DNA of 33,758 bases, taken from positions 1 through 33,758 of IMG/VR virus record IMGVR_UViG_3300045253_000076, one strand, 5' to 3'. How positions within the stretch are numbered: position 1 is the stretch's first letter; every line of letters begins with the position of its first letter. Shown piece after piece: positions 464 through 13,208 of this stretch. The notes under the pieces were generated by a model, which saw only the letters and a list, made by a program, of their open reading frames with translations, was not told the origin of the DNA and searched no databases. Made by a program: the position numbers and the translations under genes. This DNA is from a virus.

Positions 464-702
464 GTAGACACTGGCAAGAGATACTGCATGAACTGCACGA
501 TGAAACCCACCGTGACGGCTACTACTGTCGCGCCAACATGCTAGAGAGCATTGTCGATGAGCTGATAGCGGAAATGGAATACGCCAAAGTCGTAGGGCCA
601 ATTGGCAAATACCAGGGCGTATCCCAGAAGGGCGTATCCCAGATGGGACCGGTTTTCTGCAAGCTCCCAGAGACATTACCAGGAGATACAGATGGAAAAT
701 AA
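460..702 (+). CDS. hypothetical protein, 80 aa
   Basis: ATG 460 overlaps the previous TGA (ATGA). The first 45 residues are a charged helical segment (H-E-L-H-D-E-T, then I-V-D-E-L-I-A-E-M-E). A short internal duplication follows (G-V-S-Q-K-G-V-S-Q-M), encoded by a 12-base direct repeat near 615-642. The C-terminal L-P-E-T-L-P matches the tail of the partial gene at the left edge, and both are preceded by TACCAGGGCG. This suggests duplication of a C-terminal cassette. Function unknown. Confidence 0.65.
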   Translation: MSRHWQEILHELHDETHRDGYYCRANMLESIVDELIAEMEYAKVVGPIGKYQGVSQKGVSQMGPVFCKLPETLPGDTDGK

Positions 703-937
703 CGTAGTCACCCTCGACACCGCCAAGAAGCTCAAGGCGGCAGGGTTTCCGCAAAATACGGCTTATGGGTTTTACTATCGTGTCGCACGCTATGGCGACC
801 CAGGTATTTTTGTTCTGAGTGACATGTGGCGGTTCGACGACAAAGAGACTGCCGCCGCCCCCACAGCTCAGGCGGGGTTTGGTAAGATGAGGGTAATGCG
901 GTCAAGTCTAGTCCAGTTGTTTGAAAGGAGAATAGTT
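692..937 (+). pseudogene. truncated paralogue of the 119-aa gene at 12849-13208
   Basis: The frame from ATG 692 starts with M-E-N-N-V-V-T-L-D-T-A-K-K-L and later has A-A-P-T-A-Q. The intact gene on the other strand at 12849-13208 starts M-E-N-N-V-V-T-L-E-T-A-K-K-L and also has A-A-P-T-A-Q, followed by about 70 more residues. Here homology stops after that motif. The frame then runs without a stop into the next gene, which has its own strong ribosome site. I read it as a remnant produced by recombination at the shared CCCCCACAGCTCAG. A working 208-residue fusion (692-1318) cannot be excluded. Confidence 0.5.
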
Positions 938-1318
938 ATGTCTAAAGTCAAGTTAATCGTGTGCGAGGGGTACGGCAATCAGGGCCTTCCCCGTGTTGAT
1001 GGGACTGCGAAGGTGATCGACCTCAAGTTAGAGGTTCCGGATACTCACGATATTATGGGTGTCATCCGGACAGAGTTTGACGAAGAAGCGGACGGTAGCC
1101 GCCGGGATAGTGATGCTGTTGACCCTGTAATCCGTTACGAGCGCATTAACGACCTGGTGGGTAAGCTGCTTACTATCACAGACGCGGCAGCGCGGGATTC
1201 TGAGCAACGTAAGGCTCTAAAGGATCTCGTCACGCAGTCTTGTTGGGGTTGGTACAGCGGTCAGCAAGCCGAGCTGACGACACCATGGCGTAAGGATAAA
1301 GGCATCAGCGTACAGTAA
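938..1318 (+). CDS. hypothetical protein, 126 aa
   Basis: The start is set at ATG 938 because GAAAGGAG lies seven bases upstream, the clearest Shine-Dalgarno of this cluster; the frame is open further upstream only through the truncated paralogue. The protein has a beta-rich N-terminus (K-V-K-L-I-V-C-E-G-Y-G), an acidic middle (E-E-A-D-G-S-R-R-D) and a helical C-terminal half. No family recognised. It is the last + gene before a convergent - strand gene, and no terminator is evident in the 38-base gap. Confidence 0.65.
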   Translation: MSKVKLIVCEGYGNQGLPRVDGTAKVIDLKLEVPDTHDIMGVIRTEFDEEADGSRRDSDAVDPVIRYERINDLVGKLLTITDAAARDSEQRKALKDLVTQSCWGWYSGQQAELTTPWRKDKGISVQ

Positions 1319-2959: not shown

Positions 2960-3246
2960 TGCTTTGCTGTCCTGCTTAAATTGCTTTAGTTATACCACAT
3001 TCGATATAGTGCCTGGTAGAACCCCCAACGCTGTCCTGCTGCGGGGGTTCAACCGTGGGTGCTTACCTCGTGGCTTGCCGATGCGTCCAACGACCCAAGC
3101 ACCCCCGGCCCGCGCCCGGGTTCAGGGCCGCTACCTGCGGGTATGCTGGCAGGGCTGACACATCAGACTTCGGAGCAGGGTTGGCTACCCGCTTTACGCT
3201 CCGGGGGTCAGCACTCGCATCTTTGTTTTCCAGAGATGGAAGCGAG
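2960..3246. other. divergent intergenic region with a long GC hairpin
   Basis: Lies between the RNA ligase (-) and the ATPase (+). It holds an exact inverted repeat GAACCCCC/GGGGGTTC at 3019-3050 with a 16-base loop. On the - strand a TATAAC box is visible within TGGTATAACT near 2993-3002, a possible -10 for the ligase. The ATPase frame is open back to 3055, but that part is unlike the family, is GC-rich and has no ribosome site; I treat it as leader. Confidence 0.4.
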
Positions 3247-4824
3247 ATGCAGCATCACACCGAGTTCGTCACTGACGAGCTCAAGAAGCTAATCGGATGG
3301 GGAATTCATCCCAGACGGGTAGCTGTAATGCCCTACCTAAGAAAGCTGGTCGGTGTCGGAGCCCAGGGGTCCACACTCCGTAAGCGCTACATGCTAGGAG
3401 TGTCGGACAGAATTAGAAGGAGAGCCGGGACGTTTGGCTACCCCGTGTTCCTCAACGCTAAAGAGTTCTCGGCCCTCATGGGATGGGAGCTAGACGGTCT
3501 CTCCGGGGCCAGGGCTAGGAAGCTGCCTGTGGATAACATGATCGACACCGAGGGGATTGTGATCGGTTCCAGTAACCATCACCATTCTAGAGGCCGACTG
3601 CTAGCCATCCCTCCGGCTTCGCTCCTGATGCATACCTGGGTACTAGGCCCCTCAGGCGTCGGTAAGAGTACCGTCCTGCACAACATGGCCGTTCAGATCA
3701 TGGAGCAGGGCATGGGCCTAGTGCTTATTGAGCCGAAGGGTGATCTGGCGAAAGACGTACTTTATAGCGTCCCACGGAGTCGCGTCGAGGATGTAATATG
3801 GTTCGACCCAGCGGATACTCTTTACCCTATAGGGCTCAACGTCCTCGCGGGTCACGACGTAGAACGTATTACTGGTCACATAGTAGGTATGTTTCAGAAC
3901 ATTTACTCCGATAGTTGGGGTTCTAGACTAGAACGTATCATGAAGTTTGCCGTTAAAACAGCGGCCATGAACGGGCTTACTCTCTATGATGTGCGCCACC
4001 TCCTAATGAACCCAGACTTTCGGGCTCAGGAAGTGGCGAAGCTCCGCCGTGTAGATCAAGAGCTATGGATGGAATGGCGGTGGCTGGACTCCATCACCGA
4101 CACCGCTGTGGATTCGGTTATCAACAAGCTGGACAACTTCCTTGGCTCTCGGACGCTGCGCAACATCGTCGGCCAGAAGTCGGGCCTGTCTATGAGTGAC
4201 GTTGTGGAAGGCCGAAAGATTCTACTTGTACCCTTGCCTTCGGCTTTGATCGGTCAAACGAATACTTCCGCACTCGGCTCGCTGGTACGAGAACTCCTGT
4301 GGGATGAGATACGTCGTCGGCCCTCGGGACATCGTGAACCCATAATTCTGATGATGGATGAGTTTCAAAACTACGCGGATCTAAATACAACTCGGAGTGA
4401 CCCATTTGCAGAAGCTCGCTCATATGGCCTTGGCCTCGTTATTGCTAATCAGCATACTGCACAACTGCCTAACGCGGTACTGTCCTCGGTCTCCAACAAC
4501 ACGGCTTCAAAGATTGTCTTTGGCCTGGAACCGGAAGACGCTAGGAAGCTTAAAGACAGCTTCATGCCACTCTCACCGGATGACTTGAACACCCTGCCGC
4601 GCTACGGTGTGGCGGCCAGGCTCATGACCTCGACTGGCAAGGCTCCTGTAACAACCGCTACCACGGCTCCAGCTCCCATGCCTACCGGGGCCGGACATGC
4701 CGCCCTGGAAGCCTCCAGGAGCCGCTACGGCCGTCCGGTAGCCGAGGTGCAGCAAGAGATGGCCGACCGCCACAGGGTGGCCCAGGAGGACCGCAAGCGG
4801 CCTAGCGTGGGGCGAGAAGTTTAG
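3247..4824 (+). CDS. VirD4/TraG-like (FtsK/HerA-type) DNA-translocating ATPase
   Basis: A 525-residue RecA-fold ATPase. Walker A G-P-S-G-V-G-K-S-T is at 134-142, Walker B I-L-M-M-D-E-F at 367-373, and a conserved A-N-Q-H motif at about 400-403 is typical of TraD/VirD4 coupling proteins and conjugation-type HerA relatives. E-P-K-G-D-L after the P-loop region is also typical of this group. No transmembrane segment is seen, unlike classic VirD4. The C-terminal 60 residues are low-complexity, Ala/Pro-rich and charged. ATG 3247 follows GGAAG at 4-5 bases. Its last 23 bases overlap a convergent gene. Likely roles are coupling of DNA to a transfer channel or another DNA-moving step. Confidence 0.8.
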   Translation: MQHHTEFVTDELKKLIGWGIHPRRVAVMPYLRKLVGVGAQGSTLRKRYMLGVSDRIRRRAGTFGYPVFLNAKEFSALMGWELDGLSGARARKLPVDNMIDTEGIVIGSSNHHHSRGRLLAIPPASLLMHTWVLGPSGVGKSTVLHNMAVQIMEQGMGLVLIEPKGDLAKDVLYSVPRSRVEDVIWFDPADTLYPIGLNVLAGHDVERITGHIVGMFQNIYSDSWGSRLERIMKFAVKTAAMNGLTLYDVRHLLMNPDFRAQEVAKLRRVDQELWMEWRWLDSITDTAVDSVINKLDNFLGSRTLRNIVGQKSGLSMSDVVEGRKILLVPLPSALIGQTNTSALGSLVRELLWDEIRRRPSGHREPIILMMDEFQNYADLNTTRSDPFAEARSYGLGLVIANQHTAQLPNAVLSSVSNNTASKIVFGLEPEDARKLKDSFMPLSPDDLNTLPRYGVAARLMTSTGKAPVTTATTAPAPMPTGAGHAALEASRSRYGRPVAEVQQEMADRHRVAQEDRKRPSVGREV

Positions 4825-5031: not shown

Positions 5032-5492
5032 TTACCACCAATTCCCCACGTCCCGCCCATTAATCGGCACTCTCGCTAACCAATGGGCCTTGGCCTTCTC
5101 CCACGTCCCGTACCGCTTCTCCATGTAGCCCGTGAAGAACTGGTCTTCGCACTCATAGTCGCTCAGCTCACAGGGCATCTTAGAGCACGGTAGGGCCTGG
5201 CCTAATCCACAGGCACCGATGCTATTCACAGCTGTGGGGCGGTTGCCGGACTCATGCATGTAGATAAACATCTTGGCTTCTTCGGGCGTCTCAGTTGGTA
5301 CGGGAATTGGTGAGGGACTGAGACTTACTTTTTTGGGCTAGGTGCGCTCTGGTGGGCAACTATGTGTACCGAGTCAGCGTGTACGAACTGCGTACCAGCG
5401 TAGAACATGGCGGCTGAGTACATCGCCAGTAGGGTGAGAATGACGTACGCCTTTAAGGCGTAATCCTTGGTTGCCTGTTTGTTGATCTTCAT
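5032..5492 (-). CDS. membrane-anchored lytic transglycosylase made by -1 frameshifting (153 aa)
   Basis: The product of frame 0 from ATG 5492 to the slip site, then the -1 frame to TAA 5032. The C-terminal frame encodes a compact lysozyme-like SLT domain: Y-M-H-E-S-G-N with the likely catalytic Glu (residue 81 of the fusion), A-V-N-S-I-G-A-C-G-L-G-Q-A-L-P, then Y-M-E-K-R-Y-G-T-W and a terminal W-W. Alone, the second frame (minimal ORF 5032-5271) has no export signal and no good ribosome site; frame 0 supplies exactly one membrane segment and a linker. The -1 frame is open through a Pro/Ser linker directly from the slip site. Peptidoglycan cleavage outside the membrane is expected, for lysis, entry or a VirB1-like transfer role. 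The domain call is strong; the frameshift is inferred. Confidence 0.7.
5288..5334 (-). promoter_or_regulatory. candidate -1 ribosomal frameshift signal
   Basis: Read on the - strand, the heptamer A AAA AAG (5334-5328) is in the correct X-XXY-YYZ phase of frame 0. It is followed at once by the TAA stop (5327-5325), then by a perfect 8-bp stem GTCTCAGT/ACTGAGAC (5324-5317 with 5295-5288, 21-base loop). The spacer from heptamer to stem is only three bases, short of the usual 5-8, so the lower pairs may need to open. The -1 frame continues straight into the SLT domain. Confidence 0.65.
5325..5492 (-). CDS. frame-0 membrane-anchor protein, 55 aa
   Basis: ATG 5492 has AAGGAA eight bases upstream and a promoter just beyond it. 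The peptide starts with a Lys-rich stretch, then has one hydrophobic span (about residues 15-32, A-Y-V-I-L-T-L-L-A-M-Y) and A-x-A-like residues, consistent with a signal anchor. It ends ...S-P-K-K at TAA 5325-5327, immediately after the AAAAAAG heptamer. It may be made alone as well as fused to the transglycosylase, a ratio that could limit enzyme dose. Confidence 0.6.
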   Translation of the reverse strand: MKINKQATKDYALKAYVILTLLAMYSAAMFYAGTQFVHADSVHIVAHQSAPSPKK

Positions 5493-10112: not shown

Positions 10113-10988
10113 TCACGCTCTTGCGGCGTGTAATATCGTATCGAGTAAAACCGCAAATCGTTCCCTGTCGCTGTGCCGATTGTTGTAGTGAAATGCAAAA
10201 GCATTCAGGTAAGACTGTAGGTGCTTCTTAGATACCACCTTGTGAGTGCCGGTAATGGAACGCTTGAGGTGTGACCAGAAGCCCTCAATGGTGTTGGTGT
10301 AAATATCGCCCCGCACATACTCGCCCTCGCTGTGGTTGACCACGAAACGGTTATAGCCAACGGCGACTTTGTTGCAGCGGTTCGAGCTGTCCGTCATGAG
10401 TCGAGTGTCTTTAGGCTCGACAGTGGCAACCAGGAAACTACCATGAGTAGTCGCCGTGCTGTCTGGCACTACGAATACCCGAACCTCACCTTGGCGTTTA
10501 ACCGCACCCATCAACACGGCTTTATCAGCTATGGCTTCGCTCAAGTTCTCGTTATAGGCTCCGGCTCGCTTGCGACCACCTAAGTAAGCAGCGTCCATTT
10601 CAACGTCACCTTGCAATTTGTCATTGGGTTGCTCTAGGGCTTTGCGAATGAGGTTGAGCATACGCCACGCGGTCTTGTAGGTTACTTCAAGCTCTCGCTC
10701 CATATACTTAGCCGATATGCCGGACTTCGCGTTAGAGAACGCGAGAATGGCCTTAAACCACAACGTGAGAGGGGTTTCGGATTTGTGGAATATCGTATTG
10801 GCTGTTGGGGCAATCTGGAACCGGCACTTGGAGCAGTAAAATTGCCGCCGCCCCTTGACCATCGAGTAAGTGCCGCCACACGAACACTCACGGCTATGTT
10901 GAGCGTCAAATAGAAACTCAAGCACGGCCTCATCGGTGGGGAAGTCGCGGGCCAGTGAACCCATGCCGTAACGATGTTCGCGGGTCAT
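10113..10988 (-). CDS. IS1595-family transposase (ISXO2-like DDE domain)
   Basis: 291 residues from ATG 10988, which overlaps the passenger stop (ATGA). The N-terminal zinc ribbon has C-S-C at 35-37 and C-S-K-C at 52-55. A helix-turn-helix-like region follows (I-S-A-K-Y-M-E-R-E-L-E-V-T-Y-K-T-A-W-R-M at about 91-110). The ISXO2 catalytic core has M-D-A-A-Y-L-G-G-R-K (Asp132), L-M-T-D-S (Asp200) and N-T-I-E-G-F-W-S-H-L-K-R (Glu235). The first motif usually reads D-E-x-Y-x-G-G; Ala replaces that Glu, but the triad itself is present. No frameshift or internal stop is seen. Confidence 0.92.
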   Translation of the reverse strand: MTREHRYGMGSLARDFPTDEAVLEFLFDAQHSRECSCGGTYSMVKGRRQFYCSKCRFQIAPTANTIFHKSETPLTLWFKAILAFSNAKSGISAKYMERELEVTYKTAWRMLNLIRKALEQPNDKLQGDVEMDAAYLGGRKRAGAYNENLSEAIADKAVLMGAVKRQGEVRVFVVPDSTATTHGSFLVATVEPKDTRLMTDSSNRCNKVAVGYNRFVVNHSEGEYVRGDIYTNTIEGFWSHLKRSITGTHKVVSKKHLQSYLNAFAFHYNNRHSDRERFAVLLDTILHAARA

Positions 10989-11509
10989 CGGCTGACCTCG
11001 CGGATAGCCCGTAGTCCGGCAAAGCTCTTGGGGCCGCAATACTCAACGTAATCGAGCATGGTCTTACCCTTGTTGGCAAAAAACGCATTGGGGTGAGGTT
11101 GCTTGGCGAGTAGAGGCTTAACGCGGTCATATTCGGCCTCAGCTTCGACTTGAGCCTTGGCTTCGGCGGCTTCACGCTCTACCCTAGCTTGCTCACGCGC
11201 AGGTGCGTCAGCTTCCCATGCTTCAATCTCTTTAATGCGGCGTAGCTCGCGGCGGCGTTGACTCATTTTGGCCTTAACTACATCAATCAGACCCTTGTCG
11301 CCTAGTTTCTCGACGCACGTTGAGCCGATGACAAAGCTTTTGTGGTCGGAGCTTTCGCACTTGAAGATGATTGTGATGTAAGTGCCGCAGTGGTCGCAGA
11401 CTAAGCCCGGCTTGGGGTTCATCTCTGTGGGTTCACCAGCTTCTAGAACAGCTACCAAACGGTAAGGTGCTTTGCCTAGGTCGGTGAAGATGTGTTGCTT
11501 GGTTTCCAT
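10985..11509 (-). CDS. zinc-motif passenger protein carried by the IS element, 174 aa
   Basis: It lies inside the terminal repeats, upstream of and coupled to the transposase, so it is part of the mobile element. The N-terminal domain (about 1-75) has V-C-D-H-C-G at 37-42 and later F-K-C and G-S-T-C-V-E, four cysteines that could bind one zinc; this pattern is common in small phage and plasmid proteins of unknown role. A long charged coiled coil (about 80-130) is followed by a C-terminal segment (L-D-Y-V-E-Y-C-G-P-K-S-F-A-G-L). It may assist transposition or be cargo. An ATGCCTT/AAGGCAT dyad lies at the start (11517-11543). Confidence 0.75.
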   Translation of the reverse strand: METKQHIFTDLGKAPYRLVAVLEAGEPTEMNPKPGLVCDHCGTYITIIFKCESSDHKSFVIGSTCVEKLGDKGLIDVVKAKMSQRRRELRRIKEIEAWEADAPAREQARVEREAAEAKAQVEAEAEYDRVKPLLAKQPHPNAFFANKGKTMLDYVEYCGPKSFAGLRAIREVSR

Positions 11510-12555: not shown

Positions 12556-12852
12556 CTACGCTATCTTGGAATCTTGGTTAGGTTTGGTAGAGGTTGGGTC
12601 AGACCCTGGGGCCTCTACCCAATCAATTTCGTAGGCGTATGTGCCTGGCTGATGCACAGAAAACCACTGCCCGTTATCTGGTACGGCCTCATTAGGCGCG
12701 AGCTTTCTTAGCGTGGGGACTGGTATCGCTCCAGCCGCCTGGTCTACGGCCACCTCTAGCTGTTTCGTGGCACTGCGCTTATTGGCCTCTGCGAGCTTGT
12801 GGAGCTTGGCTAGGTACTCGGTTGTTATGCGGGTATGGGTGTAGTCTGTCAT
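12556..12852 (-). CDS. hypothetical protein with possible ribbon-helix-helix N-terminus, 98 aa
   Basis: ATG 12852 overlaps the upstream stop (ATGA). The first 45 residues (T-R-I-T-T-E-Y-L-A-K-L-H-K-L-A-E-A-N-K-R-S, then K-Q-L-E-V-A-V-D-Q-A) have a short strand and two helices in the order of Arc-like ribbon-helix-helix proteins. The second half is an unrelated Pro-rich part with W-F-S-V-H-Q-P-G-T-Y-A-Y-E-I-D-W. If it binds DNA, the 19-bp palindrome at this operon's promoter is an obvious target to consider. Last gene before the terminator. Confidence 0.6.
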   Translation of the reverse strand: MTDYTHTRITTEYLAKLHKLAEANKRSATKQLEVAVDQAAGAIPVPTLRKLAPNEAVPDNGQWFSVHQPGTYAYEIDWVEAPGSDPTSTKPNQDSKIA

Positions 12853-13208
12853 TTCACCTCCTGTAGCTTCAGCCAGAGCAGGGCTAGAGCTTCGGCCATG
12901 GTGGGGGCTTCTAGCGGGTTAAAAGAGAGTGGACTTCGGCACCATGCCGTATAACGCCCTCGCCAGTGCCTTACTTCTACCTCGTCCAACTGGTCGGCTA
13001 TCTCCTGAGCTGTGGGGGCGGCAACCCAATCTGTGCCCGGCTCTCCTAAGTCTCGATAATCGCCGGTATCGACAGCGGCTACGGGTTTGCCTTGCCATAG
13101 CCACGGTTGGCCATCACGAAGGTCGCTCCACATAAAAGTAGTCCGCGACAGAAACCCCGCTGCATTGAGCTTCTTGGCGGTTTCGAGGGTGACTACGTTA
13201 TTTTCCAT
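12849..13208 (-). CDS. hypothetical protein, 119 aa, intact paralogue of the remnant at 692-937
   Basis: Starts M-E-N-N-V-V-T-L-E-T-A-K-K-L at ATG 13208, within the end of the upstream gene. It has a Trp-rich middle (F-M-W-S-D-L-R, Q-P-W-L-W-Q-G-K-P-V-A), then A-A-P-T-A-Q-E-I-A-D-Q-L and a final segment ending L-W-L-K-L-Q-E-V. This resembles small proteins common in uncultured phages and plasmids that end with an A-P-T-x-A-E-A-L module, but no function is known to me. A truncated relative lies at the left end of the window. Confidence 0.65.
   Translation of the reverse strand: MENNVVTLETAKKLNAAGFLSRTTFMWSDLRDGQPWLWQGKPVAAVDTGDYRDLGEPGTDWVAAPTAQEIADQLDEVEVRHWRGRYTAWCRSPLSFNPLEAPTMAEALALLWLKLQEVK

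Follow-up and report, generated by a model that had tools for sequence, protein, structure and literature searches.

Our comparison of related loci suggests, with a probability that we put at about 0.88, that programmed −1 frameshifting in a phage gene yields a membrane-anchored lytic transglycosylase; that the shift occurs in vivo, and how efficiently, is inferred. The gene lies in a complete IMG/VR virus record of 33.8 kb, represented by a single contig, the whole of which was analysed and is hereafter called the window. In the mechanism that we propose, the majority of ribosomes would synthesize a short single-helix membrane protein and then stop. A minority would slip back one base at slippery codons just 5′ of the stop codon, aided by an RNA structure situated 5–11 nt downstream, which is in most members an H-type pseudoknot and in the window a simple 8-bp stem, and these ribosomes would go on to produce a membrane-anchored lytic transglycosylase, which is very probably the phage endolysin.

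The window gene comprises the following features:

5325–5492, minus strand: 0-frame ORF for a 55-aa single-helix signal-anchor protein (from sequence and translation).
5328–5337, minus strand: putative slip site CCCAAAAAAG, with the overlapping in-phase heptamers C_CCA_AAA and A_AAA_AAG (from sequence, and from the tetramer in relatives).
5288–5324, minus strand: putative stimulator stem GTCTCAGT/ACTGAGAC, with arms at 5324–5317 and 5295–5288 (from RNA folding).
5032–5328, minus strand: −1 frame, encoding a Pro/Ser linker and a lytic-transglycosylase-like domain (from profile matches and AlphaFold2).
5328–5272, minus strand: Pro/Ser linker of the −1 frame.
5271–5035, minus strand: lytic-transglycosylase-like domain, with its stop codon at 5034–5032.
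5032–5492, minus strand: predicted frameshift product of 153 aa, with anchor, linker and transglycosylase.

The anchor frame starts at the ATG at 5492, with AAGGA a short distance 5′ of it, and specifies a protein with N-terminal positive charges, one hydrophobic stretch and a Ser/Pro tail; its 3′ end (5339–5325) reads AGC CCA AAA AAG TAA, the stop codon occupying 5327–5325. An anchor ORF is found in the same position in 29 other two-frame loci. The original prediction, made from the letters of the window alone, had described a 55-residue anchor frame ending in TAA after an in-phase A_AAA_AAG, a perfect 8-bp stem three bases past this heptamer, an open −1 frame giving a 153-residue fusion with the junction P-K-K-V-S-L, and an enzyme frame without a good ribosome site of its own. 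This observation is correct in every detail: the heptamer lies at 5334–5328, the stem is present, no stop codon interrupts the −1 frame from the junction down to 5032, and recomputation returned the same fusion (55 + 98 = 153 aa) and junction. Likewise, the earliest ATG in the enzyme frame, at 5271, falls within the domain and has no Shine-Dalgarno sequence. What had been missed is that a second in-phase heptamer, C_CCA_AAA at 5337–5331, overlaps A_AAA_AAG.

The enzyme matched the NCBIfam model AggPromo_Cterm (NF052397) with an E value of 1.4e-16 and 60.7 bits, for a cut-off of 40, and the transglycosylase family PHROG 12661 at 3.8e-5. The Pfam SLT model (PF01464) gave 14.6 bits, under its cut-off of 21.3; on domains as short as these the model matches weakly or not at all, and it was NCBIfam that identified them. 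An AlphaFold2 model derived from 30 relatives reached a pLDDT of 90.8, and nearly all of the structural neighbours listed for it were lytic transglycosylases or resuscitation-promoting factors (Rpf), the best E value being only 0.59. A sequence search of the PDB produced no match. The Glu in the catalytic position (ES motif, after helix 1) is invariant in 30 sequences, and the membrane segment is N-terminal on the enzyme, being supplied by the anchor frame in the predicted fusion and lying in frame in the single-frame relatives.

Scans of viral and genome collections, together with genome surveys, provided more than 100 distinct copies of the enzyme. They were sorted by a rule that ignored slip sites and RNA, namely whether the enzyme frame had its own membrane segment or was overlapped by a membrane ORF in another frame. 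Inspection by hand gave 30 two-frame loci, among them L043, which is nearly identical to L042; L043 is left out of the test set (n = 29), and the later addition of L218 brings the total to 30 loci without L043. The 29 tested loci form 28 clusters at 60% slip-region identity and, with L218 taken as a further one, there are 29 lineages. In all 30 loci and 29 lineages (slip regions less than 60% identical) the enzyme is in the −1 frame, and never in +1. The −1 frame between slip site and domain contains 0 stop codons in 1176 codons, versus 58.6 expected. Single-frame homologues carrying an anchor plus the same domain, whose existence had been predicted, were indeed found in these scans; they consist of an anchor, a linker or coil, and then the enzyme, all in one frame, and thus have the anchor-linker-enzyme order that had been proposed as that of a secreted transglycosylase.

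The slip site was taken to be an in-phase A_AAA or U_UUW that falls within the overlap, at most 12 codons from the 0-frame stop. Such a slippery tetramer (A_AAA, U_UUU or U_UUA) occurs in 29/29 members of the test set, for a chance expectation of 4.6/29 on average and 13 at most (5000 trials). Shuffling the codons within each member gave a mean of 13.8 and a maximum of 23 (5000 shuffles), and with a single representative per cluster the tetramer was present in 28/28, versus a shuffle maximum of 22 (20000 shuffles). The commonest form is NNA_AAA, with TTA, TCA, GTA, CCA or CTA preceding AAA, and TCT_TTA, T_TTT_TTA and T_TTA_AAC make up a minority; AAAA is in phase 27 times, versus 10 and 4 times in the other two phases. 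Comparison of the slip site across relatives bears out a conserved in-phase tetramer but not conservation of the A_AAA_AAG heptamer itself, in whose place most members have NNA_AAA or U_UUW. In Escherichia coli, the A_AAA tetramer is weak even with a pseudoknot and Y_YYA_AAR heptamers are shift-prone (PMC4066793), from which we infer that most members would be expected to shift at a low level and the window at a higher one.

The window stem is a perfect 8-bp helix with a 21-nt loop, and begins 3 nt past AAG and 6 nt past CCCAAAA. Its folding energy is −11.1 kcal/mol (z −1.9), and 9 of 200 shuffled sequences fold equally well; on its own, the stem is only moderately unusual. No convincing second stem that would make a pseudoknot was found in the window, even in a relaxed hunt by eye. 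By itself the window is suggestive only, and it is the comparison with its relatives that appears to carry the case beyond chance. A scan with our own script, which uses simplified energies, fixed geometry limits and a score threshold of at or below −16, located an H-type pseudoknot 5–11 nt 3′ of the slip site in 24 of the 29 test members, whereas each of the 26 other offsets (−150 to +240) gave only 0–5 of 29; relative to dinucleotide shuffles, the Fisher p value was 4e-26. The pseudoknot is also present in L218, which was found once the rule was set and displays the full signal. Spacers measure 5–11 nt, mostly 6 or 7, with 4–9 bp in stem 1 (mostly 6–7), 4–7 bp in stem 2, and 2–7, 1–5 and 8–15 nt in loops 1, 2 and 3, respectively.

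The stems of these pseudoknots covary, since 22 of them show 21 distinct sequences in stem 1 and 19 in stem 2; when arms are combined between members, just 44–45% of positions pair, full pairing of a member's own arms being given by construction. The 0-frame stop codon lies within stem 1 in 17 of the 22. Other members depart from this pattern: the pseudoknot is replaced by a long simple stem in the window and in L113, which share C_CCA_AAA, the structures in L070 and L045 are hairpin-like by eye, L004 has a weak stem only, and L008 no convincing structure. The stem predicted as stimulator can thus be retained for the window but not, as a plain stem, for the family, where an H-type pseudoknot would be the usual stimulator. 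Stimulators in E. coli generally begin 5–8 nt downstream (PMC4066793), and the spacer of 5–7 nt in most members is compatible with this range. No known frameshift element from Rfam was matched, and an upstream Shine-Dalgarno stimulator of the dnaX type was rejected, with Shine-Dalgarno-like sequences in 2 of 29 members only. Overall, the comparison shows that the −1 phase, the slip site, the RNA structure and the open −1 frame are all conserved; the −1 frameshift first read from a single contig is thereby supported by a common direction, slip sites in 29/29 and, mostly, a covarying pseudoknot.

Against this reading, there are no translation data, the window copy lacks a pseudoknot and has a stem of z −1.9, most relatives rely on the weak A_AAA tetramer, L004 and L008 have little or no convincing structure, and the pseudoknots come from a scan with simplified energies. 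Additionally, the A6 run of the window is known from a single contig, and sequencing error is possible in principle. For the window alone, a sequencing error or a real indel in this run could have split a one-frame gene, or the gene could be decaying: the homopolymer sits exactly at the junction, one more A would join the frames, and single-frame relatives exist, several of which, including L007 and L018, are near the window in the tree, without resolved support. However, about 29 other lineages, from different samples, have their frames broken by −1 in the same way, at runs of only A4 or T4, and the window has two in-phase heptamers plus a stem at the right distance, both frames being otherwise intact and the enzyme residues conserved; an artefact of the A6 homopolymer is therefore unlikely. 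Slippage of the RNA polymerase on the A-run, with the fusion being translated from part of a mixed mRNA population, seems to us hardly credible. It could apply to the window (A6) and L012 (A7), but most members have only AAAA or TTTT/TTTA, runs that are too short for transcriptional slippage, and it predicts neither a codon-phase rule (27 vs 10 and 4) nor a pseudoknot.

We also give little credence to the synthesis of two separate proteins, in which the enzyme would be an unanchored cytoplasmic endolysin translated by termination-reinitiation at the anchor stop, from a normal or a non-standard (AUA) start codon. Such coupling requires neither an in-phase tetramer nor a pseudoknot 5–11 nt behind it, and both are conserved, while the single-frame relatives are anchored fusions. 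Besides, 11 members (the window, L002, L012, L015, L038, L048, L049, L054, L067, L176 and L179) contain no ATG, GTG or TTG between slip site and domain, and at the stop the −1 frame reads GTA or CTA in the window, L003, L012 and L002. Coupling does find some support in L005, where stop and start truly overlap (ATGA) in the same relative frame, in the fact that an ATGA overlap is in itself a −1 arrangement, and in the AAAATAR junctions of L008, L010 and L015, which place AUA in the −1 frame. Programmed −1 frameshifting remains our preferred explanation for the two-frame loci.

Among single-frame viral relatives, 18 of 33 have a two-helix holin-like ORF no more than 450 nt upstream, usually under 100, versus none of the 29 two-frame members (Fisher p 6e-7, uncorrected for relatedness). 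Unannotated ORFs of this type, encoding 56–105 aa, lie upstream of the enzyme gene, and mostly immediately 5′ of the anchored enzyme, in L011, L030, L037, L040, L047, L051, L058-L060, L063, L064, L068, L072 and L180-L182; a PHROG scan of four of them retrieved no match. The anchor itself matched no holin family in Pfam (window) or PHROG (window and L012 anchors) and, with one predicted helix, the anchor-only product does not meet the holin criterion of a family match or at least two helices. A transfer enzyme had also been contemplated, but a conjugation enzyme fits the context less well than an endolysin encoded by a phage lysis gene; the gene order suggests a lysis cassette, of which the enzyme is likely to be the endolysin, both this role and a holin-like short product being inferences. 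Because the two-helix gene is frequent upstream of single-frame enzymes and absent from two-frame loci, the latter probably supply a membrane protein together with endolysin in small amounts, and we hypothesize that the anchor-only product does the job of the missing neighbour. It is possible, although we propose it only tentatively, that one gene constitutes the whole lysis pair, with an abundant 0-frame holin or pinholin and a rare −1 signal-anchor endolysin sharing the same membrane segment. If this were true, the RNA structure would determine both the timing of lysis and the proportion of holin to endolysin, and a single gene would stand in for the two-gene cassette found in single-frame relatives.

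A single origin of the two-frame state was discarded, as the tree requires at least six well-supported changes, a count inflated by one or two by the wrong labelling of L043 as single-frame. These changes suggest either recombination or repeated gain and loss, which could not be resolved. Four single-frame loci (L007:2698, L009:2647, L018:2668 and L209, the last in reverse and starting at about 1009) lack any ATG, GTG or TTG before the membrane segment, and have instead a GGAG followed 6–8 nt on by ATT (coordinates are approximate), with ATT TTA TCA CG common to three of them. This suggests a rare AUU start codon as another way of keeping the enzyme scarce. At L005:2840, the start codon of a related enzyme overlaps the stop codon of a membrane ORF (ATGA), an arrangement that is coupled and not frameshifted.

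Actinobacteria are carriers of the two-frame gene, with one copy (L017) in the chromosome of Arthrobacter sp. Hiyo8 and another (L113) in a different Micrococcaceae genome. In a survey of about 1,090 genomes of Saccharimonadia, Micrococcaceae and Actinomycetes, no other two-frame copy appeared among the top-scoring loci inspected, and the other loci examined were single-frame. Relatives of the window terminase, 42% identical to it, occur in two genomes that are binned with a Saccharibacteria MAG at class level, and one of the two shares its contig with a related single-frame enzyme; Saccharibacteria are the probable hosts of the window's group. A plasmid search gave no match. The Hiyo8 chromosome also contains a remnant of the C-terminus of a second related enzyme (L214, 65691-65810). 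Elsewhere in the window, 3055-4824 (plus strand) encodes a Type IV coupling-protein-like (TrwB/TraG) ATPase of phrog_5156, of unknown function, in what is a tailed-phage genome, and 10113-11039 (minus strand) an IS1595-family transposase, probably from an inserted element. The products of 602-1318 (plus strand) and 12849-13208 (minus strand) share the stretch MENNVVTL(D/E)TAKKL(K/N)AAGF and are apparent paralogues, far apart and on opposite strands.

Frameshifting would here determine how much of a cell-wall-cutting enzyme is made in a wide group of uncultured phages, some 30 of which appear to produce it only when a ribosome slips. In these loci, annotation pipelines would report an isolated membrane ORF and either a truncated lysin or none. 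For work on bacterial frameshift stimulators, the covarying pseudoknots already form a comparative set, and how phages fix the holin-to-endolysin ratio becomes directly testable through comparison with the single-frame relatives.

The known cases of frameshifting in tailed phages come mainly from tail-assembly and capsid genes, and SAR endolysins, such as P1 Lyz and that of phage 21, have pinholin or holin partners. As in SAR endolysins, an N-terminal membrane anchor precedes a peptidoglycan-cutting domain in the family, and as in SAR/holin pairs the single-frame relatives often follow a two-helix holin-like ORF; unlike SAR endolysins, the two-frame members have anchor and enzyme in different frames, no adjacent upstream two-helix ORF, and an AggPromo_Cterm transglycosylase as enzyme. 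PRFect lists lysins among known frameshift genes, apparently citing a phage lysin split over two overlapping frames, which, as far as the title of that paper tells, resembles the family. The lysis gene of MS2, which overlaps the coat gene, is similar in that, according to a reference cited by PRFect, expression of the lysis protein is tied to translation of the upstream frame, and differs in that this protein is not fused to the upstream product. Our literature search, in which the split-lysin paper was represented by its title alone, found no description of a frameshifted transglycosylase or of a pseudoknot-driven phage lysin. With the bacterial −1 frameshifting of IS3/IS1 transposons, dnaX and phage tail-assembly genes (PMC4066793, PMC5009743), the family has in common an in-phase tetramer or heptamer, a stimulatory stem or pseudoknot 5-8 nt downstream, and a short 0-frame product together with a longer fusion. 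Unlike in these systems, the family product is a phage membrane-anchored peptidoglycan enzyme and the signal is mostly NNA_AAA plus a compact H-type knot, with stem 1 usually holding the 0-frame stop; unlike dnaX, an upstream Shine-Dalgarno-like sequence is seen in only 2/29 members. The kind of mechanism is thus known; what appears to be new is the use made of it here, how widely it occurs, and the compact knot.
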